64,000 bases of DNA from positions 186,001 through 250,000 of the forward strand of contig NZ_CANMMT010000003.1 in the NCBI RefSeq assembly GCF_947499065.1. The letters are read 5' to 3'. The position numbers and the translations under genes are program-made. Each line of letters starts with the position of its first letter. Within the stretch, counting starts at the first letter, position 1. The notes below the pieces were generated by a model. The model searched no databases and had not been told where the DNA came from. It was given only the letters and a program-made list of their open reading frames with translations. Origin of the DNA: an uncultured Tenacibaculum sp. Its GTDB lineage: Bacteria; Bacteroidota; Bacteroidia; Flavobacteriales; Flavobacteriaceae. Positions 169 through 40,418 of the stretch are shown here, in pieces.

Positions 169-1752
169 TTAATTAGAGCTAGCCATTTTTTGTTGAAATG
201 TAAATACAATAAATTCAGCAGGTCTTATTGGGGCTACTGTTATAGATACTTTCATAATTCCATTAAGAATATCTTCTTCGGTCATTGTGCTACCTAATCC
301 ACATTCAACAGAAAAGGCATCTTCAGGGGTTGCACCTTGCAATCCACCTTGCTTCCAAATTCCATATAAAAAACTACTAATCATAGATTTTACAGATTCC
401 CAAGTACCATAATCATTAGGTTCAAAAACATAAGCCATCGCTGCTACTTTACAAGATTGTTCTAAAAATATAACGGTTCTCCTAACCGATAGATATCTCC
501 AATCTGGGCTATTACCGTCTAATGTTTTAGCTCCCCAAACCAAAATTCCTGCTCTATTAAAAAAACGAATTGCATTAATAGATTTTCCAGAAACAATATC
601 AACATTTAAAACTTCCTGTTGAGCATTGGTTAAGTTTATAGGTAGGTTAATAACATCGTTCATGGCAACATTTGCGGGAGCTTTCCATGGACCTAACTGA
701 TTGTCGGTTCTGGTAATTACTCCAGCCATTCCACCACTTGGAGGTAATAAGTTAGCATCAGACAATATATGTGTCATAATAGTGCTATAAATAGGACTTG
801 CTGCTATTAACAAACTATTGTATTGATGTGTAGTTAAGGCATGTTCACTCGAAGTACTTCGAATAGTATCAATGATAGCGTTCACAGATTCATTTGGATT
901 ACTTTCTGGGCTTAAAATTTCTTGTAATTTATTCAAGTCTCCACCAAATAAATTTGTATAATTAATATCATTGGTTTTCTGAACTGTGGTTTCTACAAAA
1001 GGATAGTAAGCGGCTCCATAATCTAAGCCAGTACTTCCAGTTGCATTTCTAAAAGCACTAATATCTTCGATATAGGTATTAGGATGAGGTGTTTTTCCTC
1101 CAATAATATCAAAAATACATATGGCAGTTTGTTTTTTTGAAGCTTGTGATAACATTTCCTGCATTAAAGTAGCATTGTTTTCTACAGAAAGCAATGTAGC
1201 TTCAGGACAAATGTACATGGTTGGTTCTTGTTCTTTTTTCAATAAAGCTAATCCTTTAGTTAAATCGTCAATTTGAACATTAGGATTTACAATTTGATTG
1301 CCAATTGGAGCGGCCTTTCCAGAGGTAGCTCCATAAGAACCAACAGATACGATGTAAGCATTACTTCCGCCATTATCAAAAAACAATTTAATACTATTGT
1401 ATAAGTAATAAATGGTGTTTGGATCGGGCACAATTGCATAATAATTGTCAGCAATCATTATATGATTACTGGAATTTGGTTGACTTTCTTGCTTTACTAA
1501 ATAATATTGCGGATTGTATTGCTTAGCAGGATTCACCGAAGACGGTGGTGTTGGTAAACAAAAAATCGCTTGAAATTCAGCAAAAGATGAAATTTTTGTT
1601 GGGACGTTGATGCATGATTTTCCTTGATGCATAGCTTGAGGAGTATATCCTATAAATGCAGGTACGGATGTTGCAACAGGTACTACTGAGTTTGGAATAG
1701 TATTAATTTCATTAATATATACTCCTGGCGTTTTGATAGTTGATAGATTCAT
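169..1752 (-). CDS. Contractile tail sheath protein (phage-like / eCIS)
   Basis: Sheath subunit of a contractile injection apparatus; such subunits stack around an inner tube and shorten to drive it out. The N-terminus MNLSTIKTPGVYINEINTIP is the classic sheath start, and the C-terminal part (WRYLSVRRTVIFLEQS, then FEPNDYGTWESVKSMISSFL and a final beta-strand-rich segment) matches the conserved phage_sheath_1 C-terminal domain. About 527 residues, usual for bacterial eCIS sheaths. An upstream TTG at 1761 would add three residues; I prefer the ATG at 1752. No gene precedes it for about 400 bp, so it is probably first in an operon running off the left edge; tube, baseplate and ATPase genes are not visible. 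An aligned promoter lies at 1830-1894. A prophage origin cannot be excluded, but Bacteroidota sheaths of this length are usually eCIS. Confidence 0.88.
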   Translation of the reverse strand: MNLSTIKTPGVYINEINTIPNSVVPVATSVPAFIGYTPQAMHQGKSCINVPTKISSFAEFQAIFCLPTPPSSVNPAKQYNPQYYLVKQESQPNSSNHIMIADNYYAIVPDPNTIYYLYNSIKLFFDNGGSNAYIVSVGSYGATSGKAAPIGNQIVNPNVQIDDLTKGLALLKKEQEPTMYICPEATLLSVENNATLMQEMLSQASKKQTAICIFDIIGGKTPHPNTYIEDISAFRNATGSTGLDYGAAYYPFVETTVQKTNDINYTNLFGGDLNKLQEILSPESNPNESVNAIIDTIRSTSSEHALTTHQYNSLLIAASPIYSTIMTHILSDANLLPPSGGMAGVITRTDNQLGPWKAPANVAMNDVINLPINLTNAQQEVLNVDIVSGKSINAIRFFNRAGILVWGAKTLDGNSPDWRYLSVRRTVIFLEQSCKVAAMAYVFEPNDYGTWESVKSMISSFLYGIWKQGGLQGATPEDAFSVECGLGSTMTEEDILNGIMKVSITVAPIRPAEFIVFTFQQKMASSN

Positions 1753-1829: not shown

Positions 1830-1894
1830 TGAATCTAATATAAAAATGAGATATAACCTCATGAAAAACCTTACTAAAAGTAGGGAAAAACCCT
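1830..1894 (-). promoter_or_regulatory. Site A: direct-repeat operator and promoter of the sheath gene
   Basis: On the minus strand: distal element AGGGT (1890-1894), 17 bp with central CCCTAC, proximal element AAGGT (1868-1872), exactly 30 bp, then TAGATTCA (1830-1837), a variant of the Bacteroidota TAnnTTTG element. The repeat period is 22 bp. The same layout occurs at 5640, 8794 and 9124. The start codon would be about 75 nt downstream. The rest of the 1753-2489 gap holds a broken small ORF and a terminator; 1895-2160 shows nothing else recognisable. Confidence 0.6.
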
Positions 1895-2180
1895 ATTTTT
1901 TTAATGGTTAAAATCCTTTATAGTGATTTTAGCTTGAATTTATATGAATTATTTCTTTTAACTTGGTAAAGAAAATTTGAAAAATCTGCTGTTTATTATG
2001 ATATGAACTTTCCTGAATTAGTTTCATTTGAATACAGTGTTCTGCTATTTGTTTTTGATAATAATATTAGAGAGTGAACTAACAAAAATCTAAACATAAT
2101 TGTTGCAGAAATTTATAAAAGTTATGGAGTGCTAAAAAAATATAACCATTAAAATTAATATAGTTTTTAAAGGAGAATAA

Positions 2181-2330
2181 TTGAGTATAACTGATAAAAA
2201 ATAGATTCGCTTACGTAAAAAAGATTTAGAACTACAATTGGCTAAATATTCCTATTATAGAGAATTAAAAATGCAAACAGAAATTGCTGCTTTGGAGCAC
2301 GAGATAGCAAGTTTAGAACAGTTTTTTTGA
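2181..2330 (+). pseudogene. Small coiled-coil ORF interrupted by an in-frame TAG
   Basis: A good ribosome-binding sequence (AAAGGAG, 2169-2175) lies 5 nt before a TTG start at 2181. The frame reads seven codons, meets TAG at 2202-2204, then continues open for 41 codons to TGA at 2328. The downstream part (IRLRKKDLELQLAKYSYY and EIAALEHEIASLEQFF) is a strongly helical, heptad-rich segment. A terminator follows at 2363. This looks like a small coiled-coil gene inactivated by a nonsense change, or one that starts at the internal ATG at 2271. Function unknown. Confidence 0.4.
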
Positions 2331-2362
2331 GAAGAGAAAAGATTTTTAACATTATAATGTAT

Positions 2363-2396
2363 AACCTTTGTAAATAATTATTTACAAAGGTTTTTT
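2363..2396 (+). terminator. Rho-independent terminator
   Basis: Perfect 13-bp stem AACCTTTGTAAAT / ATTTACAAAGGTT with a 4-nt loop, followed by a T run on the plus strand. It ends the small coiled-coil ORF at 2181-2330. Confidence 0.8.
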
Positions 2397-2489
2397 AATA
2401 GTAGATATACTAAAATAACACAATACTCAAAGTGTTTCTTTTTCATAATAATTCTCTACTTAATTCTTGAGTGTTTTTTATTTCACACT

Positions 2490-3689
2490 CTATTTGTTTT
2501 TTAGGGTTTTAATCAATAATTCTTTTAATTCTTGTCCTTTTATATCAATATCAAGAACAAGTCCATTTTCATCAACAATTATCGTATAAGGGATAGTACT
2601 AAAATTATAGAGTTTATTTAGGCTAATGGATGAGTTTTTCTTTATTCCATGCGGCCAAATGTATTTATTCTTCTCAATACTTTTTTTCCAATTTTCAATG
2701 TCTCTATCTAAACTAATCCCAATTATTTCAAACCCTAATTTATGATATTCTTTGTACAATGGTAAAATCACTTTATTGTTTTCATTAATACATGGATTAC
2801 ACCAAGAAGCCCAGAAGTCTATAAGGGTTATCTTACTGAGTTTTTTTGATAATTTGAAAGAGTTTCCATCGATGGAACTTAGCTCAATATCTGGTATTAG
2901 TTTTCCTTTCATATTCTTTGAACGTTCTATCTCCGCTAAATTATTTTCATCTTGACTTATTTTCGTTAATAAAAACTGTTTAATTAGATTATTGTCAATA
3001 GAAGGTATTAAATTGTTTAAAAAATCTATTTTATCTCTTTTAACTGGAAAATAATATAATAGTTGTAATGCAATCAAACCAGAATACTCATGTTTTTCAA
3101 AACTTTTTTTAAGAAGTTTCAGGTAATTTTGGAATTGTTCTTCAATTAATTCACTAAGTTCTCTTTCTAGCTTGCTTTCTTGTTTTAAAAATTGATTTAT
3201 GTCGAGTTTCATTTCTGACATTTTATTTCTTTTATTCCAAAATTCTTCAACTTCCTTAAACATTTTACCTAATTCGTTAAACGCAGTTTGAATATGCTTG
3301 TTATTTTTATTCCCTTTGAGAAGATAGGAACGTGTATTATCTGGATCACAATTGATGTTTATATGATCTCCTCTTTTCAAGTCCAAATAAATAGCTTTTT
3401 TATTATCAAAACCTTTAAGGAAATCAACTCTGTATAAACCGTTATTATTTTCAATATTTGGTGAAAACACAACCTTATTGTCCTTAATTTTTACAGAGTC
3501 TATTAACATCAAGGCATTTTTATCTGAGCTCCATCCAGCGATAAAATTAAAATTGTTAATTTTTGATAGATAGATTACTTTATCAGAAACCGGTTTTGTA
3601 AACTCAATAGTAATTTTGGTATCTTTATTATTACAGCTATAACAAATTATGTTTAGTATAAACAATAAAGAAAATGGAATTCGTCTCAT
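2490..3689 (-). CDS. TlpA-like thioredoxin-fold lipoprotein
   Basis: Periplasmic thiol-disulfide oxidoreductase of the TlpA/ResA kind, 399 residues. The N-terminus has a signal sequence ending in a lipobox-like IICYSC, so it is probably a lipoprotein. Residues about 25-130 form a DUF4369-like beta domain; a charged helical region follows (about 135-235). The C-terminal 140 residues are a redoxin domain starting GKLIPDIELSSIDG with the active-site motif WASWCNPC and a later cis-Pro region (STIPYTIIVDENG). It lies 118 bp downstream of the membrane LuxR-type gene, which has a similar N-terminal domain, so the two may be one unit. Probable role: reduction of extracytoplasmic disulfides; the partner is unknown. 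Confidence 0.85.
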   Translation of the reverse strand: MRRIPFSLLFILNIICYSCNNKDTKITIEFTKPVSDKVIYLSKINNFNFIAGWSSDKNALMLIDSVKIKDNKVVFSPNIENNNGLYRVDFLKGFDNKKAIYLDLKRGDHININCDPDNTRSYLLKGNKNNKHIQTAFNELGKMFKEVEEFWNKRNKMSEMKLDINQFLKQESKLERELSELIEEQFQNYLKLLKKSFEKHEYSGLIALQLLYYFPVKRDKIDFLNNLIPSIDNNLIKQFLLTKISQDENNLAEIERSKNMKGKLIPDIELSSIDGNSFKLSKKLSKITLIDFWASWCNPCINENNKVILPLYKEYHKLGFEIIGISLDRDIENWKKSIEKNKYIWPHGIKKNSSISLNKLYNFSTIPYTIIVDENGLVLDIDIKGQELKELLIKTLKNK

Positions 3690-3807
3690 ACTTTTTATAA
3701 GTTTTTTTAATTTGAAAATTATTGTTCAAAACAACGAATTTTTCAAAAATCTTTATGAAACTATTGAATGTAAAAAAGGAGTATTAGGGGGAGTAAAAAA
3801 GAAGTAT

Positions 3808-4797
3808 TTAAGTTTCTTTTGAATGAATAAAGATTTTAAGTTGTTGAATTTTAGAAGCAAAAAATATTGCTTCTTTCTTATTCGTAACTTGAATTTTTTT
3901 ATAAATATTTGATAGATGTTTCTTCAATGTAGATGGCTCTATAAATAGTTCATTGGCTAATTCTGTATTAGTTTTATCTGACTTTAATTTAAACAGGATA
4001 TTTCTTTCACGAAGAGACAAAGAGTATAATATTCTTTTTAATCTATTTTTCTGTATAAATAAATAATACTTAAAACAAAGAAATATAAAAACACCCATGA
4101 ATAGTAATATAACTATTATTGTATAGTTATTTCTTAGATTTTTCATGTTAGGTCTAAGTTGTTTAGAGAAAATATTTTCATGAAAATCATTATTTATTCG
4201 ATTTTCTATTATCGTAATACTATTAAGAAAGTTTAAATTTCTTTCATATTTATCTATACTGTCTCTAATCCCAATAAAAAACACTTCAGGGTATTTTGTA
4301 TTTGCAATTAGGCTATCATGTTCTATAGTTGAAGAAATTAGATTAGCATTCTTTATTTTCTTTTCTATATCGTGTAATTTTTTTAATTCTATATTCTCTC
4401 GGGAGCCTTTAATTTGATATTTCTGAAAAAAATCATTGCTATTAATTTCAATAAAAATGTAGTCATTTTTTTTTAAGTGTAAAAAAATAGTAGAAGACGA
4501 AGTATTTAAATGAGTTTTTAAGTCATCGTTTTTATTTATGTGTAACTTATATAGTGAAGTTCTTTCATCCAATACTCCTTCTATTTTATAAAGGTTACTT
4601 CCTGTTTGTATTCCGCTATTTAAATAATTATTAGTATTAAGTGTATTTATATCAAAAGGTTCTACTATGGAGTATAGTTTAATGTCTACTAAAGGTTTTG
4701 GATTTTTAATAAGTAAATTGATAGAGAAGTCTTGGGCAGCTAAGGATAAAAAGGGTATAAAGATTAGTGAAAAAGAAATATATAAGGATTTCATCAT
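3808..4797 (-). CDS. Membrane-anchored LuxR-type (GerE) transcriptional regulator
   Basis: About 329 residues. A signal peptide (MMKSLYISFSLIFIPFLSLAAQ) is followed by a periplasmic DUF4369-like domain (DIKLYSIVEP..., FLHLKKNDYIFIEINS), a helical linker, one membrane segment (IIVILLFMGVFIFLCFKYYL) and a cytoplasmic C-terminal GerE helix-turn-helix (LSLRERNILFKLKSDKTNTE, then ANELFIEPSTLKKHLSNIYK). The architecture is a one-component sensor: periplasmic sensing, cytoplasmic DNA binding. I start at ATG 4797 because it places the signal peptide at the N-terminus. It precedes the TlpA-like gene, whose N-terminal domain resembles its sensor domain. It is a candidate local regulator of the small-gene field to the right, but nothing in the sequence proves this. 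Confidence 0.75.
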   Translation of the reverse strand: MMKSLYISFSLIFIPFLSLAAQDFSINLLIKNPKPLVDIKLYSIVEPFDINTLNTNNYLNSGIQTGSNLYKIEGVLDERTSLYKLHINKNDDLKTHLNTSSSTIFLHLKKNDYIFIEINSNDFFQKYQIKGSRENIELKKLHDIEKKIKNANLISSTIEHDSLIANTKYPEVFFIGIRDSIDKYERNLNFLNSITIIENRINNDFHENIFSKQLRPNMKNLRNNYTIIVILLFMGVFIFLCFKYYLFIQKNRLKRILYSLSLRERNILFKLKSDKTNTELANELFIEPSTLKKHLSNIYKKIQVTNKKEAIFFASKIQQLKIFIHSKET

Positions 4798-4923
4798 TGT
4801 ATTAAATCTAATCGAGTTACACATTACTACTTATCAATTTTGTATAAAAAATATAAAATTATTAATTATTAAAACCTCACCAAAGAATGTTGCTCTTATT
4901 TTGATAAAACGATTATGGGATTA

Positions 4924-5118
4924 ATGTTAAATTCAATAAATCTTTTAAGGAAGTCTTTAAAAAAGTACAATTAATTATATTTTAAGAATAGTCTTTTTAA
5001 AAAATATGAAAAGAAAATAAAAGTATTAGAAAAACAAGTTCAAGAAAATAGAAAACAAAATTCTAAGATAAAAGAGTTAGAGATTTTAGTTCAAAAATTA
5101 TTAAAAGAAAAGAATTAA
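4924..5118 (+). pseudogene. Small coiled-coil ORF with in-frame TAA
   Basis: ATG at 4924 opens a frame reading MLNSINLLRKSLKKYN, then TAA at 4972-4974; the same frame then stays open for 47 more codons to TAA at 5116. The second part (KKYEKKIKVLEKQVQENRKQ, then SKIKELEILVQKLLKEKN) is a lysine-rich coiled coil. A terminator follows at 5146. The layout copies the broken ORF at 2181. It may be a decayed small gene. No other gene is seen in the 4825-5218 gap. Confidence 0.35.
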
Positions 5119-5145
5119 TCTAGAGCAATTTATAAACTTACAATA

Positions 5146-5170
5146 AACACCTTTTAGAGGTGTTTTTTTA
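5146..5170 (+). terminator. Rho-independent terminator
   Basis: Stem AACACCT / AGGTGTT with a 5-nt loop and a following T run on the plus strand. It ends the small coiled-coil ORF upstream. Confidence 0.7.
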
Positions 5171-5218
5171 TATCAAAAAAATTAGAAATGAATAATATAA
5201 TAAGTTAGATAAAAAACT

Positions 5219-5434
5219 CTAATACATAATTATAAAGCCACAATTATTCTTAAGATACTTGATAAACAAGTTTATTGAATTTTGATTGATTTTAATATCG
5301 GTATCTAACTTAGCTTCAATTAGGTTGACGCCATAATTAGATGAATTAATTTGAATGTTTGAGTAATCTTGAAAATTGGCAGAAATTTGATTGAATTCTT
5401 TCAAATGAGATTTATAAAAATAAATTTTTACCAT
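5219..5434 (-). CDS. Hypothetical 71-residue protein
   Basis: Not recognised. ATG at 5434 (MVKIYFYKSHLKEFNQISAN) to stop at 5219, with an amphipathic, Asn/Ile-rich composition, no membrane segment and a C-terminal NNCGFIIMY. The amino-acid mix (balanced charges, beta-like alternation LIEAKLDTDIKINQNSINLF) looks coding rather than random. It stands alone between the coiled-coil ORF and the small-RNA locus. Confidence 0.5.
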   Translation of the reverse strand: MVKIYFYKSHLKEFNQISANFQDYSNIQINSSNYGVNLIEAKLDTDIKINQNSINLFIKYLKNNCGFIIMY

Positions 5435-5565
5435 GTTAAATACTTTTAATTGGTTAAGAAATCAATTTAAATTAAAAGTAAAGGGCAAAATGAAAAATAA
5501 GATAAGATTCTTAAAAGTATAGGTAAGAGACTTTAAAGTTAAGATGAAAAATTAGTGTGAGTTAT

Positions 5566-5636
5566 AAAAAAGAACCCACTCAAAGATTGAGTGGGAAAAT
5601 TGCTATGAAAAAGAACTTAAGACGTCTCTTAAGTGG
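5566..5636 (-). ncRNA. Predicted small RNA (about 65-70 nt)
   Basis: Site B (5640-5704) drives minus-strand transcription from about 5635, and a strong terminator (stem CCCACTCAA / TTGAGTGGG, 5575-5595, followed by TTCTTTTTT) ends it at about 5566. Between them there is no start codon. The transcript would hold a perfect 8-bp stem ACTTAAGA / TCTTAAGT with loop GACG (5615-5634), a short U-rich single strand, then the terminator hairpin. This is the usual build of a regulatory RNA. The promoter matches those of the two peptide genes and the sheath gene, so it may be the regulatory arm of that regulon. Inferred from sequence only. The 5435-5808 gap has no other recognisable gene. Confidence 0.5.
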
Positions 5637-5639
5637 CTG

Positions 5640-5704
5640 CAAAGATAATTTAAAATAATAGATACCTATGTTAAAAAACCGTAAAAAAAGTAAGGTTTTA
5701 CCGT
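5640..5704 (-). promoter_or_regulatory. Site B: direct-repeat operator and promoter of the small RNA
   Basis: Minus strand: ACGGT (5700-5704), 17 bp with central CCTTAC, ACGGT (5678-5682), 30 bp, TATCTTTG (5640-5647). This is the cleanest of four sites: the two 5-mers are identical, 22 bp apart (two helical turns), and the downstream element matches TAnnTTTG fully. Confidence 0.6.
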
Positions 5705-5754
5705 AAAGTTTTAAAAAATAGAAAAACCTAGGTTTCTCGATTCTATAAACAGAA

Positions 5755-5790
5755 AAGCTCATTGGTATAATATAATTGCGGTAATCTTTA
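5755..5790 (+). promoter_or_regulatory. Probable promoter of the 5809 gene
   Basis: The sequence AGAAAAGCTCATTGGTATAA (5751-5770) continuing to TAATCTTTATTTTTT aligns with the stretch upstream of the gene at 8087 (AGAAAAGCTCTTTGATATTG, then TATCTTTATTTTTT). It has a TTG box upstream of a TAnnTTT-like element. Confidence 0.35.
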
Positions 5791-5808
5791 TTTTTTTACA
5801 TTTGTTGT

Positions 5809-6036
5809 ATGATACATTTTTTCTTATTAGGAATTGTACTTTTATGTATGTTTCTTTTATTAGTACTGCTTTTCATTCTTTGGAAGAAAGATAATAGCTT
5901 TAGTTATACCGAAGCATTATTTTTTTTAAGTAATAAGATTGTGAAGGGATTTTTTATCTATGTATTTCCAACTTTAATGGGGTATGTTTTTTATTCTTTA
6001 GTTTTATATATGTACAACCATATAATCAATTTATGA
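5809..6036 (+). CDS. Small two-span membrane protein
   Basis: 75 residues, not recognised. Two hydrophobic spans: residues 3-25 (FFLLGIVLLCMFLLLVLLFI) and about 47-70 (FFIYVFPTLMGYVFYSLVLY), joined by a short polar loop (WKKDNSFSYTEALFFLSNK). ATG at 5809, terminator at 6078. One of three plus-strand small membrane genes in this field (5809, 7033, 8087) with related upstream sequences. An immunity or regulatory role would be a guess. Confidence 0.5.
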   Translation: MIHFFLLGIVLLCMFLLLVLLFILWKKDNSFSYTEALFFLSNKIVKGFFIYVFPTLMGYVFYSLVLYMYNHIINL

Positions 6037-6077
6037 AGTTGATTGAAAATCAAATTGAAAATATTGTTTAGCATAGT

Positions 6078-6103
6078 ACAACACTTGTTTAGTGTTGTTT
6101 TTT
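6078..6103 (+). terminator. Rho-independent terminator
   Basis: Stem ACAACACT / AGTGTTGT, loop TGTTT, then six T on the plus strand; ends the 5809 gene. Confidence 0.75.
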
Positions 6104-6143
6104 ATGTCAAAAATTTAGAAGACAAATAATAAATAGTAGGCTT

Positions 6144-6362
6144 TTAGAAGAAAGGAAAACAGCTAGGTCCAAAAGAAATTAAACATCCTCCATAAATACA
6201 ATAATCGTAAATATTATGTATGTATTCTAAACCAGGAATTATTTCAACCAACGGAATAGATATAATTGTTAACGATAAAATAAAGGAAATTAATTTAGTG
6301 AATGTAGAAACTTTTTTTGTTTCTACATATTCTATATTAAGTTGATCATAGCTTTTTTTCAT
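6144..6362 (-). CDS. Small membrane protein, Cys-containing C-terminus (paralogue of 9462)
   Basis: 72 residues. The N-terminus MKKSYDQLNIEYVETKKVST and the following FTKLISFILSLTIISIPLVE align closely with the gene at 9462-9683 (MKNSYEQLNIEFIEPRKASL, FTKLVSYVLIMIFILNPLYK). Both then have an IIP motif and diverge completely into Cys-containing tails (here YCIYGGCLISFGPSCFPFF). A soluble conserved leader, one membrane span and a variable Cys tail suggest either a peptide precursor or an immunity-type family. Unrecognised; both copies flank the double-glycine peptide genes. Confidence 0.55.
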   Translation of the reverse strand: MKKSYDQLNIEYVETKKVSTFTKLISFILSLTIISIPLVEIIPGLEYIHNIYDYCIYGGCLISFGPSCFPFF

Positions 6363-6418
6363 AAGAACAAAATTAATGAAAATAAATTATTAGTTGTTTT
6401 AATCTATACTAATATACA

Positions 6419-6802
6419 TTACTCTTGTATACGATATATGATATAAGGAACAATAGAAGTCCAAATTAGAACAAAAATCCAAACTCTTCCTTTAAAAATA
6501 TTGTAATCATTTAATAGGTTAGGCCAAGAATGTCCTAAGAGGTAGTGACCGAATAAAAACTCAAAAGTTACTGTAAATATTAACCAAATTAGTCCAATAA
6601 ACATTGCTTGATTGACAGAAGCTGGAAAGAAAATCTTAAATAGAATCCAGTTATATATAGCTAACAAAATAATCATACTTACAGAAGAGAGCTGGTGTGC
6701 TTGGAGTTTATTGAAATAGTTTACTAAAAACTTTTCACGAAAATATCCGTTAACTATGGCAATAATAATCATTGGAAACCATGCTAGTATATACTTCAAC
6801 AT
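6419..6802 (-). CDS. Four-span membrane protein, hypothetical
   Basis: 127 residues with four hydrophobic segments at about 2-20, 42-62, 66-90 and 107-124, so an integral inner-membrane protein. It starts MLKYILAWFPMIIIAIVNGY. The conserved-looking FGHYLLGHSWPNLLNDYNIF segment between spans three and four suggests a real family, but I cannot name it. It lies 56 bp upstream of the 6144 gene on the same strand and could be co-transcribed. Confidence 0.6.
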   Translation of the reverse strand: MLKYILAWFPMIIIAIVNGYFREKFLVNYFNKLQAHQLSSVSMIILLAIYNWILFKIFFPASVNQAMFIGLIWLIFTVTFEFLFGHYLLGHSWPNLLNDYNIFKGRVWIFVLIWTSIVPYIIYRIQE

Positions 6803-6952
6803 TTAAATTGTTTTTTTAATTAATCATCTTAATCTTATCACTATTAAAAATAATAAAAGAGTTATTAAGCTTTTATGATTTTTATCATTTAAAAGGTATA
6901 ATAGCGTCTAAGATTGATTATTAGTTTCTTATCTCTTGAAAGCAGAAAATTT

Positions 6953-6990
6953 CATTGACATAATTGTGGTGGGTAATTGATATAGATTTG
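6953..6990 (+). promoter_or_regulatory. Promoter-like repeat upstream of the 7033 gene
   Basis: TCATTGACATAATTGTGGTG (6953-6972) runs into ATATAGATTTG (6980-6990). The -7 type element TAGATTTG is at 6983-6990. A near copy differing by a 2-bp indel and few substitutions sits at 7975-8016. Confidence 0.4.
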
Positions 6991-7032
6991 AATATTATAT
7001 ATTTATATCTTAAAATTTAAAAGAGAATTTTA

Positions 7033-7404
7033 ATGCATAAGGAACTTAAAAGTATCAAGTCTGAAAAAATAATAGATGGAATTAAATGGTGGGAATCTAA
7101 GAGATGGGTTTTCAATTTGCTTGTTGGACTTTCTGGAGTACTTGGAATAGTTAAAGGAATCTATGTAGCGGCTGAAAATATATTCGTTATATCAGATATA
7201 TTTGGGATAATACTTTTAGGAATAATAGCTAATATTTTTTATTCAAGCGGCATTTTGGTTGAAATATTCGATAATTATTATTTTAATAACAAACTAAAAA
7301 TGGAAAGGTTTAGGGTAATATTTTTAATTTTAGGTTGCTTATTATGCTGTATCTATGCTTATCTTTCTACTTATTTTTATTATAATTTATCTTTTCAATG
7401 GTAA
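7033..7404 (+). CDS. Small membrane protein, hypothetical
   Basis: 123 residues. A basic soluble N-terminus (MHKELKSIKSEKIIDGIKWW) is followed by hydrophobic spans at about 27-47 (FNLLVGLSGVLGIVKGIYVA), 55-80 and 98-118 (VIFLILGCLLCCIYAYLSTY), so three or four membrane passes. ATG at 7033 with a promoter-like sequence ending 43 bp upstream. Not recognised. It belongs to the set of isolated plus-strand membrane genes in this field. Confidence 0.55.
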   Translation: MHKELKSIKSEKIIDGIKWWESKRWVFNLLVGLSGVLGIVKGIYVAAENIFVISDIFGIILLGIIANIFYSSGILVEIFDNYYFNNKLKMERFRVIFLILGCLLCCIYAYLSTYFYYNLSFQW

Positions 7405-7515
7405 AAAAAACTATCATGGTGAAAATTGTTACTTATCACAAAAATCTTTTAAAAGGTGTTTTTTTATGTTTAAAGATTTAGAAACAAATAATAAAATAGA
7501 TATAAGTAAAAGTAA

Positions 7516-7707
7516 TTACCAAAAATAAAAAACCAAAATAAAGATTACCAAATAATTAATAAGGCTAAATTTCTTTTTGTTCTTTAAATACCATTTTTTT
7601 TCTTTTTCACTAAAAAGAAAGAAAAGTTTACCAATAAGAAATTCAATAATTAAAGTAATTATAGCAAAGAGAGAACATTTTAATATCCAGAGTAACCAAC
7701 TAGTCAT
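7516..7707 (-). CDS. Small two-span membrane protein
   Basis: 63 residues: a first hydrophobic span (WLLWILKCSLFAIITLIIEF), a basic loop (FSEKEKKWYLKNKKKFSL) and a second span ending at the C-terminus (INYLVIFILVFYFW). It lies 13 bp downstream of the 7721 gene, so the pair is probably one transcript. Not recognised. Confidence 0.45.
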   Translation of the reverse strand: MTSWLLWILKCSLFAIITLIIEFLIGKLFFLFSEKEKKWYLKNKKKFSLINYLVIFILVFYFW

Positions 7708-7720
7708 AAAAAAATAATAG

Positions 7721-7918
7721 TTATTTCTTATAGATTCTATATAATCTATTAATTGAGAAAATAATAAGAAGAGCTAATGAAAAAAGGATAAATAAATCCA
7801 TAATTATAAATTCTTCAATTTTATTAGCTCTATTAAAGAAAAAAGAATAGATAAAATATATACAGATAGCAATAAAACCAAGATAATATTGAGGTCTGTG
7901 GGTTTCTTTTTCACTCAT
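7721..7918 (-). CDS. Small two-span membrane protein
   Basis: 65 residues. MSEKETHRPQYYLGFIAICI opens into the first span; the second is FIIMDLFILFSLALLIIFSI, followed by a basic tail NRLYRIYKK. Likely co-transcribed with the 7516 gene. Not recognised; compositionally convincing because hydrophobic spans and charged loops alternate regularly. Confidence 0.45.
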   Translation of the reverse strand: MSEKETHRPQYYLGFIAICIYFIYSFFFNRANKIEEFIIMDLFILFSLALLIIFSINRLYRIYKK

Positions 7919-7974
7919 AATCCAAATTTAATAAAAACAAAATAAATCTGTATTACTAAAAGAACAGATAAAGT

Positions 7975-8069
7975 TCATTGACGTAATAATGGAGGATGAT
8001 AATTAATATAGATTTTCCAATACCTTAAAGTAGAAAAGCTCTTTGATATTGTAGTAAATAGTATCTTTA
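7975..8069 (+). promoter_or_regulatory. Tandem promoter-like elements upstream of the 8087 gene
   Basis: Two elements. One at 7975-8016 copies the 6953-6990 sequence (TCATTGACGTAATAATGGAG to ATATAGATTTT). The other at 8042-8069 has TTTG, 16 bp, TATCTTTA, and aligns with the sequence before the 5809 gene. The second is better placed for the 8087 start. Confidence 0.4.
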
Positions 8070-8086
8070 TTTTTTAATTTTACAAA

Positions 8087-8446
8087 ATGAATAAAGATAA
8101 AATAGCAATGATTTTTGGAATCTTTGTTTTAGCCTTAGTTGTTTGGCGTGTAATAAGTAAAGAAAAAGAATTAGCGGAAAATAAAATGTACGGTGAAGCT
8201 AAAATTATTGATTATTATAACGTTGGGGGAAAGAAATATATTAAATATGTATTCTTTGTAAATAATAAAAAATATGTAGGAAAAAAAAATGTTTTTTCTT
8301 TTAAATGTGATAATGGAGTTGATGGGTGTGTTGGACAAAAATTTCAAGTTATTTATTCAAGTAAAGACCCTGATAATAATGAAATTCATCTAGGTAAATA
8401 TAATGGTTCAAGACCAAACAGAATTAGAGTTTATAGCCCGTATTGA
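8087..8446 (+). CDS. Membrane-anchored hypothetical protein
   Basis: 119 residues: one N-terminal membrane anchor (IAMIFGIFVLALVVWRVI), then a soluble, mostly beta domain (YGEAKIIDYYNVGGKKYIKY, VFFVNNKKYVGKKNVFSF) with two Cys in CDNGVDGC. The fold pattern recalls DUF3592-like domains, where short beta strands carry a covalent-looking Cys pair, but this is a weak comparison. ATG at 8087, terminator at 8536. Confidence 0.6.
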   Translation: MNKDKIAMIFGIFVLALVVWRVISKEKELAENKMYGEAKIIDYYNVGGKKYIKYVFFVNNKKYVGKKNVFSFKCDNGVDGCVGQKFQVIYSSKDPDNNEIHLGKYNGSRPNRIRVYSPY

Positions 8447-8535
8447 TAATAAATAACAGGACAAGGCCTTATAACTAACTCCAATTTAATTAAGAAAATT
8501 ATATAAGCACTAATAAAGCAATTTATTTAGAACAA

Positions 8536-8561
8536 AACGCCTTAAATAAGGTGTTTTTTTT
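8536..8561 (+). terminator. Rho-independent terminator
   Basis: Stem AACGCCTT / AAGGTGTT (one G-U pair), loop AAAT, long T run on the plus strand; ends the 8087 gene. Confidence 0.75.
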
Positions 8562-8593
8562 AGTCAAAAATTTAAAAAGAGATAAAAAGAAAA

Positions 8594-8611
8594 AGCGAAC
8601 CGAAGTTCGCT
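8594..8611 (-). terminator. Terminator of peptide gene 1, UUCG tetraloop
   Basis: Minus strand AGCGAAC-TTCG-GTTCGCT: a 7-bp stem closed by the very stable C(UUCG)G tetraloop, followed by TTTTTCTTTTT. It starts 9 bp after the peptide stop. Confidence 0.8.
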
Positions 8612-8620
8612 GATAAATTA

Positions 8621-8773
8621 TTATGAATTGGTTAATACGCATTGGCATAAACCAAAATCCCATTTTTCATCTAATTCGCAAGGATCGAATGGGAAACATG
8701 CTTTACCACCATTAATAGATTGTTGTTCATTTTTGTTCAAAGTTGAACCTAAGTTTGAAATGTTCTTTAACAT
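8621..8773 (-). CDS. Double-glycine-leader peptide 1 (bacteriocin/pheromone-like)
   Basis: 50 residues, below the usual ORF size cut-off. Leader: MLKNISNLGS...NKNEQQSINGG (residues 1-23), the Bacteroidota double-glycine leader of ComC/BlpC-type peptides, normally cut after GG by a C39-peptidase ABC transporter. The predicted mature part is 27 residues: KACFPFDPCELDEKWDFGLC followed by QCVLTNS, with four Cys. A close relative lies at 8939. Site C is at 8794-8858 and a strong terminator directly follows, so it is a single-gene unit. No C39 transporter is in the window. Function (bacteriocin, signal or RiPP precursor) is inferred from the leader only. Confidence 0.8.
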   Translation of the reverse strand: MLKNISNLGSTLNKNEQQSINGGKACFPFDPCELDEKWDFGLCQCVLTNS

Positions 8774-8793
8774 AAATTGAGTTTTTAATTTCT

Positions 8794-8858
8794 CAAATCT
8801 AAAAAGTAAAAATTAAGATTTGAGCAAAAAAAACGTAATAAAAGTAAGGTTTTACCTT
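8794..8858 (-). promoter_or_regulatory. Site C: direct-repeat operator and promoter of peptide 1
   Basis: Minus strand: AAGGT (8854-8858), 17 bp with central CCTTAC, ACGTT (8832-8836), 30 bp, TAGATTTG (8794-8801). Transcription would start about 15 nt before the ATG. Confidence 0.65.
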
Positions 8859-8914
8859 GTTTAACTAAAATTAACAGTTATAAAAAATAGAACAATAAGT
8901 ATAAGAAAAATAGA

Positions 8915-8932
8915 AGCGAACCGAAGTCCGCT
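8915..8932 (-). terminator. Terminator of peptide gene 2, UUCG tetraloop
   Basis: Minus strand AGCGGAC-TTCG-GTTCGCT, with one G-U pair; same hairpin as at 8594 except for one base, followed by TTCTATTTTT. The shared terminator indicates that the peptide genes arose by duplication of a whole unit. Confidence 0.75.
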
Positions 8933-8938
8933 ATTATT

Positions 8939-9103
8939 TTAAGGACAAGGTCCCATGTTAACTGGATCCCAGTGTGGCGGACAAAAAAATATGTATTGTC
9001 CTTGAGGATTACAATATTTAAAACATTGTGAGGCTCCTCCATTAATTGATTGCTGGTCTTGCTTATTAAGCAAGTTGCCAAGACTTGAGATGTTCTTTAT
9101 CAT
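8939..9103 (-). CDS. Double-glycine-leader peptide 2 (bacteriocin/pheromone-like)
   Basis: 54 residues. Leader MIKNISSLGN...NKQDQQSINGG (1-23) aligns position by position with peptide 1. The predicted mature part (31 residues) starts ASQCFKYCNPQGQYIFFC and ends in PCP; it has four Cys but no similarity in order to peptide 1. Conserved leader with variable core is the signature of a diversified exported-peptide family. Site D lies upstream and a UUCG terminator downstream. The start is fixed by the leader alignment (ATG at 9103). Confidence 0.8.
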   Translation of the reverse strand: MIKNISSLGNLLNKQDQQSINGGASQCFKYCNPQGQYIFFCPPHWDPVNMGPCP

Positions 9104-9123
9104 AATTTGAAGTTTAGATTTCT

Positions 9124-9188
9124 TAAATCTAAATATTTAAAAATCAAATGTATAATTGTAATCCGTAAAATAAGTAAGGGAAAACCTT
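9124..9188 (-). promoter_or_regulatory. Site D: direct-repeat operator and promoter of peptide 2
   Basis: Minus strand: AAGGT (9184-9188), 17 bp with central CCTTAC, ACGGA (9162-9166), 30 bp, TAGATTTA (9124-9131). The -7 element to ATG spacing is nearly the same as for peptide 1. The rest of the 9104-9461 gap holds no gene with an acceptable start codon; a long T-rich open frame on the minus strand (9195-9430) lacks one. Confidence 0.6.
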
Positions 9189-9461
9189 ACTTAGCTAGAG
9201 TTTACAAATGTTATAAATAGTATAGGTATAAAAATTATGATAAATAAATAACCAAAAGAATAGATAAGGAAAACCAATCAAGAAAATTAAAAAAGATGAT
9301 GAAAGTAATAGGAAGGATAAAAGGTGAAATTTTTTCTTATGACTATATAAAAGTCTAAATCTTTTATCAATATTTTTTGTTAAAAATATTGATATTGGCA
9401 GACTGAAAAGAAAAAAATTAAAGACATAAATTTAAAATAGAAACTTTAAAAACAGTATTTT

Positions 9462-39377: not shown

Positions 39378-40418
39378 ATGATGAATTATTTTTTCTCAAA
39401 AAAAGCAATACCTAATTACAGCGTGTGGGCAATTACATTAATGTCTTCATATGTGATGAAAATTAGTGATTTAGGAAAAAGTAGGGAGCTAATCTATTAT
39501 CTGGTTTCAGAATGTATGCTTTGGTTCTTTATAGGAGTACTATTAACAGGAGTTATTCAAATTGGTTTAGAAACATTTACTAAAAACAAAAAAGTTACTG
39601 TTAAAGCCTTGTATTTAGTTTTGTTAATGCTAATTACTTCTGTTATTTTTAATTATGTTTTTTGGCCTTTGATAGATTTGTTACATGAATATTTTCTGAA
39701 TAAATCAAGTTACCACGGTAAGTTTGCAACTCGTATTTTTAATTGGCTTAATTGGATTATATGGTTTGTGTCTTTTACCGCATTTAATTTGTATACAGAG
39801 GTAAAAGAAGCTAAGATGAAAAACCTAGTTTTAGAGGCAACTTTAAAAGAATCGCAGTTAAATACTTTAAAAGGGCAGATTAATCCTCATTTTATGTTTA
39901 ATAGTTTAAATAATATTCGAGGATTAATGTTGGAAGATGTAGGGAAAGCAAGACAAATGCTAACGTCATTATCAGAAACGTTACGTTATGCACTTACTCA
40001 AAATTCAATTACAACCATTGCGTTGGAAGACGAATTGGAAATGGTAGAAAAGTATATTGATATTTCTAAAATTCAATTTGAAAATAGATTGCATTATGAG
40101 ACTGTAATAGATAATTCATCTCTTAGTGTACAAATACCTCCAATGCTCGTTCAAATGCTAATAGAAAATGCTATTAAGCATGGGATTTCTAAATTAAAAG
40201 AAGGAGGAAGAATTTTATTATCAACTAAGGTAGATTCTGAGAAACTATTCATCAGTGTTATAAATTCAGGAGTTTTAAAAAAAGACAATAAAACTACTCA
40301 GGTAGGGGTAGAGAATATAAAAAAACGATTAGAGTTATTGTATGAGTCTAAGGCTGTTTTTAGTTTAGAGGAAAGAGAAAAAGAAGTTGTTGCTATTATA
40401 GAAATACCATTATCATGA
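39378..40418 (+). CDS. LytS/YehU-type sensor histidine kinase
   Basis: 346 residues. Four N-terminal membrane spans (about 10-135), a short coiled coil, then the His_kinase domain with phospho-acceptor GQINPHFMFNSLNNI and an ATPase domain with N-box VQMLIENAIKHGISKL and G box VGVENIKKRL. This PF06580 kinase group pairs with LytTR regulators. Its stop overlaps the regulator's start by 4 bp, so the pair is translationally coupled. Signal sensed is unknown. Confidence 0.93.
   Translation: MMNYFFSKKAIPNYSVWAITLMSSYVMKISDLGKSRELIYYLVSECMLWFFIGVLLTGVIQIGLETFTKNKKVTVKALYLVLLMLITSVIFNYVFWPLIDLLHEYFLNKSSYHGKFATRIFNWLNWIIWFVSFTAFNLYTEVKEAKMKNLVLEATLKESQLNTLKGQINPHFMFNSLNNIRGLMLEDVGKARQMLTSLSETLRYALTQNSITTIALEDELEMVEKYIDISKIQFENRLHYETVIDNSSLSVQIPPMLVQMLIENAIKHGISKLKEGGRILLSTKVDSEKLFISVINSGVLKKDNKTTQVGVENIKKRLELLYESKAVFSLEEREKEVVAIIEIPLS

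Follow-up and report, generated by a model that had tools for sequence, protein, structure and literature searches.

Why should the gene for an injection-system sheath, two genes for exported peptides and a site with no reading frame close by share one promoter layout? The question is raised by a 64,000-nucleotide stretch of an uncultured Tenacibaculum sp. (the window; positions 186001-250000 of contig C3 in the genome that holds it, G000, 4.01 Mb in 43 contigs), where a first-pass annotation had described four minus-strand sites built alike. Our analysis points to one Tenacibaculum regulon, comprising double-glycine (GG) leader peptides, a small RNA, the sheath gene and defence-like operons, that is probably switched on by RR1, a candidate regulator of the NarL/RcsB fold.

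An operator at a fixed distance from the promoter box

Re-reading the four window sites gave the layout described earlier at all four (Table 1), and a window scan that required ten or more of the 11 core bases, together with TAnnTT(T/C)(G/A) at +31, returned exactly four matches, with core starts at 1885, 5695, 8849 and 9179, whereas 20 shuffles under a first-order Markov model each gave none; this confirms the common layout. In the whole genome the core CCYTACTTNNNNNANGG has 33 matches at 29 places, four of these being read on both strands, compared to 2 matches for the reversed pattern used as a control. The box TAnnTT(T/C)(G/A) lies exactly 31 nt past the 17-bp core in 25 of the 33 matches, a result for which no training was used, and every other core-box spacing from 0 to 64 occurs in at most one match. 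A TTG is present at any given spacer position in no more than two of the 25 boxed sites, and hence there is no conserved -33 box, as had been noted for the window sites. In flavobacterial sigma-A promoters, going by the portion available of PMC9723704, a TAnnTTTG -7 box is placed at -12 to -5; the box here is identical and would put the core at -60 to -44, but a fixed upstream operator stands in place of the conserved -33 TTG. Fourteen of the 29 places are upstream of GG-type leader peptides resembling MLKNISNLG..LNK.EQ..INGG (one ends in GS) and two (L016, L021) fall within genes. The matches thus number 29 in 4.0 Mb and not the hundreds of unrelated loci that would speak against a regulon; the four window sites are real members of a genome-wide one, and a single activator-type promoter layout is common to GG-leader peptides, small RNA and sheath gene, as the first-pass annotation proposed.

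Twenty-six sites from G000 alone were aligned (A1) and used to train a sequence-only model, R1, leaving out L016 and L021, L018 (no box at 31), the reverse reading at each of four palindromic places, and L011, which shares an identical 88-base stretch with L007, and putting in window site 3. The aligned sites read TARGG-N5-CCYTA and then TANGG 22 bp from the first arm, with the last, promoter-proximal arm degenerate before peptide genes and reading TTTTCCGTA before many defence genes. The repeat appears better read as two tandem dyads TARGG-N5-CCYTA ~22 bp apart, which would suit a dimeric activator. Many sites can also be seen as a short hairpin (GTAAGG-N5-CCTTAC) followed by T, directly past the stop codon where they lie behind response-regulator genes, as if the motif were an intrinsic terminator; this would leave unexplained both the fixed 31-nt spacing to the -7 box and the TANGG after the T run, the run itself is broken in palindromic sites, and we regard it as extremely improbable.

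Genes behind the operator

With the A1 matrix, 99 sites score at least 40, and 15 more 22 to 40, in stretches of five genomes around R1 matches. At 52 of the 99 a GG peptide begins 15 to 23 nt past the box (16/30 in G000, 12/17 in G154, 10/25 in G163, 10/16 in G112 and 4/11 in G104), and all 52 peptides have two or more cysteines after the GG (mean 4.6). Cysteine-rich double-glycine peptides form part of the regulon, and the matches are concentrated as had been predicted, before GG-peptide genes genome-wide and, in relatives, before a maturation/export operon. Also among the targets are lipoproteins, the sheath, small RNAs and the C39-VKOR gene, whose product combines a C39-like peptidase domain with VKOR and thioredoxin domains.

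At 36 sites the first gene encodes at least 100 aa and has no GG peptide ahead of it. A PADLOC scan at E<=1e-10 covered the genes behind 25 of these, the other 11 sites being those at L061, L065, L066, L235, L249 (+), L250 (+), L251, L252, L257 (two sites) and L272. A match was found within the operon at 11 of the 36, to Septu, TIR/Thoeris-like, Shedu, McrBC, Lamassu-like, type I restriction-modification, Abi and caspase kinds of defence; the sheath, L067, L154, L233, L237, L238, L243, L244, L245, L249 (-), L250 (-), L263, L271 and the first site of L270 had no PADLOC match, and neither had L157, not among the 36, or the L061 orthologue in L136. Pfam finds a NACHT NTPase (L233), a TRADD-associated transmembrane domain (L154) and DUF4365 (L244) at PADLOC-negative sites. 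As a control, 95 G000 proteins from the same stretches, not behind sites, matched 51 PADLOC families at E<=1e-10, and among the matches listed (25 of those 51 families) about three of the 95 proteins have defence matches, two of them one restriction-modification pair. The difference (11/36 versus 3/95) has a Fisher p of 3.6e-5, which is approximate because the control count comes from 25 of the 51 families. By such homology, operator-headed operons appear to resemble anti-phage defences.

Regarding the sheath, the annotation had suggested that a contractile injection system is under this control. Its protein does match PF17482, as expected for an extracellular contractile injection system (eCIS). 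The neighbouring genes are unrelated, and a search for the gp19-like tube gene (PF06841; the search did not extend to genes for baseplate and ATPase) found none in G000, G154, G163 or G166, versus four to seven each in six congeners (G003, G090, G101, G068, G028 and G160). The eCIS loci of those six have a sheath 68 to 72% identical, but they also have tube genes of their own, and a scan of 11 to 12 kb surrounding each sheath gene (L137-L142) gave no operator match. The link therefore concerns an orphan sheath, and a contractile injection system at the window locus is not supported. The operator of the sheath promoter scores 48.2 bits by R1 in G000, a value that is not independent because the site belongs to the R1 training set, and 46.7 bits in G163.

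RR1 as the candidate regulator

R1 was run on 146 genomes of the genus and matches at E<=0.05 in 115, mostly one to three times each outside a motif-rich group defined by a best match of E<=1e-8. This group has 21 genomes (G000, G003, G017, G022, G027, G028, G078, G097, G101, G104, G111, G112, G116, G130, G132, G148, G154, G155, G162, G163 and G167), with G149 (2.4e-7) and G072 (5.9e-6) at its border; at most 30 candidates were scored per genome, and G000, G104, G154 and G163 reached that ceiling and so may hold more sites. RR1 is present at more than 300 bits in 19 of the 146, and G111 has a fragment of 66 residues where its contig ends; all 20 of these genomes lie within the 21 motif-rich ones. 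At seven loci the operator precedes the C39-VKOR gene, which starts with TTG, and RR1 (226-227 aa) is directly upstream of that gene in six, being cut by the contig in the seventh (G111). Further along this region, T. gallaicum and relatives have GG peptides, a C39 ABC transporter and an HlyD protein. In a scan of 45 named loci, the operator at spacing 31 was found behind RR1 in 15 of 15 with the C39-VKOR gene, a looser match in six more, and no operator by the same rule in 24. Of the six, two Psychroserpens loci and Aquimarina intermedia have the looser match, with a TAnnTTTG box, directly behind the gene for a regulator related to RR1. RR1 of G000 and a protein of T. aiptasiae a4 share 100% identity, in line with the genus Tenacibaculum.

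The Response_reg match of RR1 is weak, under the cut-off. Its AlphaFold model (pLDDT 84, pTM 0.64, 27 sequences) has Foldseek likenesses to spr1814, RcsB, DesR, LiaR and VraR, indicating that RR1 is a protein with a receiver and a NarL-type fold. Altogether, distribution and gene order make RR1 the best candidate regulator. RR1 paralogues (245 to 292 bits) are common in motif-poor genomes, and those aligned keep the canonical DD and D of receivers; one from G000 (C2:119267-119947) belongs, with its orthologues, to the group whose aligned members have these residues. A membrane LuxR-like protein of the window (3808-4824; apparent signal peptide, one membrane span, LuxR-type helix-turn-helix) was rejected as the regulator, since it is found only in G000 among the 146 genomes (E<=1e-12).

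LytTR operators are direct repeats with an expected period of 21-22 bp, and the period here is 22 bp. The annotation had accordingly put forward a LytTR-type activator as the binder, with the protein at 40415 of the window among the candidates, and the genome has 42 LytTR domains, with a palindromic site on C4 lying ~3.5 kb from one of them. A LytTR response regulator on 22-bp direct repeats is nevertheless very unlikely: the site is dyad-symmetric, and the operator's neighbour in relatives is RR1 and no LytTR gene. The 40415 protein, the only one of the 42 tested for co-occurrence, is present at E<=1e-50 in 31 of the 146 genomes, namely 6 of the 21 motif-rich and 25 of the 125 others (Fisher p 0.39), and was rejected.

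Several observations weigh against a regulon governed by RR1. Because the genomes compared are related, single cases of the operator/RR1 association do not count as independent evidence. Among the first loci taken from five related genomes by core match alone, none of eight pattern-only matches had the strict box at 31 (four of the eight have TA[AG]ATTG[AC] there), and none of 24 such matches from other genomes had it, unlike the relatives' matches found by the full model, which do carry a box at 31. In G154 the sheath is 96% identical, yet its operator has decayed to 15.4 bits. The G000 contig stops 180 bases after RR1, because of which the operon behind it is not visible in G000, and only a 264-aa piece of that operon's C39 transporter is found elsewhere in this assembly, where the GG-peptide system otherwise pairs double-glycine leader with C39 transporter; the transporter is present in motif-poor genomes too. 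G017 is motif-rich, with strong sites, and has no RR1; the GerE helix-turn-helix profile (PF00196) was not matched by any of the four RR1 proteins scanned; and a Glu occupies the phosphoacceptor position of RR1 in this lineage, where other RR1 orthologues have Asp. The G017 sites and the missing Pfam match would suit a different activator at the sites, with RR1 merely co-inherited beside the export operon. We consider this unlikely, given that the modelled fold of RR1 is that of DNA-binding NarL-type regulators and that its adjacency to the operator is seen again in other genera.

The leaders of several defence genes, unrelated to each other, are alike over ~150 nt beyond the operator, and parts of this leader also occur without it. 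Those defence sites are therefore not independent and may move as cassettes. Moreover, the peptide genes are paralogues and the L007 and L011 promoters are identical, so that the layout could have been inherited as a promoter-leader module that was duplicated or moved in cassettes, with hardly any joint control implied. Against this, operator and 31-nt spacing are kept although the spacers diverge, and other leaders are found at the sheath, lipoprotein, McrBC and small-RNA sites; we judge it to be quite unlikely.

Under control by RR1, two dimers would occupy the tandem dyads, at about -70 to -39 and on one helix face, and recruit sigma-A RNA polymerase to the TAnnTTTG-type box without a -33 element. 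The C39 transporter would process and export the peptides, and the C39-VKOR-thioredoxin protein, encoded with it next to RR1 in relatives, would oxidise them to form disulfides. With Glu in the phosphoacceptor place, RR1 activity may depend on its amount or on a non-phosphate cue. A cell-density or kin signal, as the annotation had suggested, is one conceivable trigger, for which the sequences give indications neither way. We can further imagine, with a little less than even confidence, a master switch of NarL fold with a worn receiver that couples attack to immunity, covering the peptides, their export and maturation, the small RNA and anti-phage systems, with defence cassettes arriving pre-wired with the operator and the orphan sheath drafted in.

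In the pln and blp systems of Firmicutes, LytTR-type regulators act with a peptide pheromone and a kinase. What the Tenacibaculum system has in common with them is a response regulator, sites repeated upstream of several genes for GG peptides and export, and a C39 transporter, such control of GG-peptide bacteriocin loci being known from Firmicutes in the portions available of PMC2714321 and PMC4739728. It differs in its NarL/RcsB-fold protein with a degenerate receiver, its dispersed peptides and the defence operons in its regulon. RcsB/NarL-family regulators, for their part, resemble RR1 in fold and in having a dyad-symmetric operator, here similar to the Rcs box, but not in the absent GerE match or in the Glu of this lineage. 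A search of open-licence literature, as far as the text it returned extends, gave no account of this operator, of RR1 or of a joint GG-peptide and phage-defence regulon, and peptide secretion joined to phage defence is a surprising, unusual feature. When bacteria run their many defence systems is a largely open question of control, and few regulators are known for peptide-based competition in Bacteroidota. One compact operator marking both makes the question directly testable, with one regulator gene, one motif and about thirty promoters, and may also help to spot further such genes, for peptides or for defence, across Tenacibaculum.

Small RNA, feature coordinates and further loci

Table 1. 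Features of the operator sites and the genes behind them. Plain coordinates are those of the window; predicted starts were deduced from the box placement in the available part of PMC9723704.
Feature	Position	Strand	Remarks
Operator of orphan sheath gene	1869..1895	-	left arm TAGGG at 1895; core CCCTACTTTTAGTAAGG, 1885-1869; palindromic form
-7-type box TAGATTCA of sheath gene	1830..1837	-	31 nt past core; predicted start ~1825
Sheath homologue, 527 aa, alone	169..1752	-	PF17482, E 2.9e-12; no tube gene found genome-wide
Operator of small RNA	5679..5705	-	core 5695-5679
Box TATCTTTG of small RNA	5640..5647	-	predicted start ~5635
Predicted small RNA	5566..5635	-	hairpin CTTAAGA..TCTTAAG, linker, terminator-like hairpin and U run
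71-aa open reading frame past small-RNA terminator	5219..5434	-	similar small frame behind site C2:172291 (likeness judged by eye)
Operator of first GG peptide	8833..8859	-	core 8849-8833; last base T, not G
Box TAGATTTG of first GG peptide	8794..8801	-	predicted start ~8789
First GG-leader peptide, MLKNISNLG...INGG, 50 aa	8621..8773	-	reading frame; no NCBIfam or Pfam family at E<=0.1
Operator of second GG peptide	9163..9189	-	core 9179-9163
Box TAGATTTA of second GG peptide	9124..9131	-	predicted start ~9119
Second GG-leader peptide, MIKNISSLG...INGG, 54 aa	8939..9103	-	reading frame
RR1	G000:C16:62935-63612		candidate regulator, NarL/RcsB fold
Septu-like PDC-M01A/B	G000		behind lipoprotein and 213-bp gap; PADLOC
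PtuA/PtuB	G154		PADLOC
PDC-S26 PD-(D/E)XK			PADLOC
PDC-S35 TIR with ThsB and PDC-M50A			PADLOC
McrBC			PF10117
SduA; type I methyltransferase; LmuB; AbiZ; AbiGi; caspase			PADLOC

No open reading frame lies close to the site at 5640, which is followed by a predicted RNA, 70 nt long, with two hairpins; folding of a 101-nt stretch there gave a z of -4.55. A 38-nt core of this RNA is identical in two other species (G112 and G104) and is preceded there too by the operator, with imperfect boxes (at 32 in G112; reading TAATTTAG in G104). A known Rfam family was rejected, as the three matches are far under gathering scores and on the opposite strand. Pairing of the linker with mRNA starts averages -9.2 for 19 peptide mRNAs, compared to -7.9 for 159 control genes and -5.9 for 30 shuffled linkers, a weak signal that we take as a lead only. 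A similar small frame lies behind C2:172291, and read-through control of the 71-aa frame is therefore possible.

Among other loci, two operator sites of G104 precede long proteins (L271:2854-4467 and L272:267-1685), with a TssD/Hcp-like N-terminus (PF17642) in L271, the one scanned, and a tie to type VI secretion is possible. Larger reading frames adjoin a cysteine-rich small frame at L066:377-3810 and GG-type small frames at L134:3588-6477, and may encode peptide-modifying enzymes. The leaders of L063, L070, L154, L155, L233, L234, L244 and L245, and one at ~50060 (-) in the window, precede unrelated genes and share the end ATATAAACAAGTT(G/A), whether or not the operator is present. Several of the loci have hairpins CAGCGAAG.TCGCTG close by at 41-bp spacing, and together with the shared leader they look like the boundary of a gene cassette or mobile module. 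Other operator sites without a reading frame in G000, G163, G112 and G104 head short, different stretches with terminator-like hairpins at their ends (G000:C2:452655, L246, L260 at -8996, L267 at -647, and L268), and some of these stretches have AATTCCC(C)TTTTTT in common.

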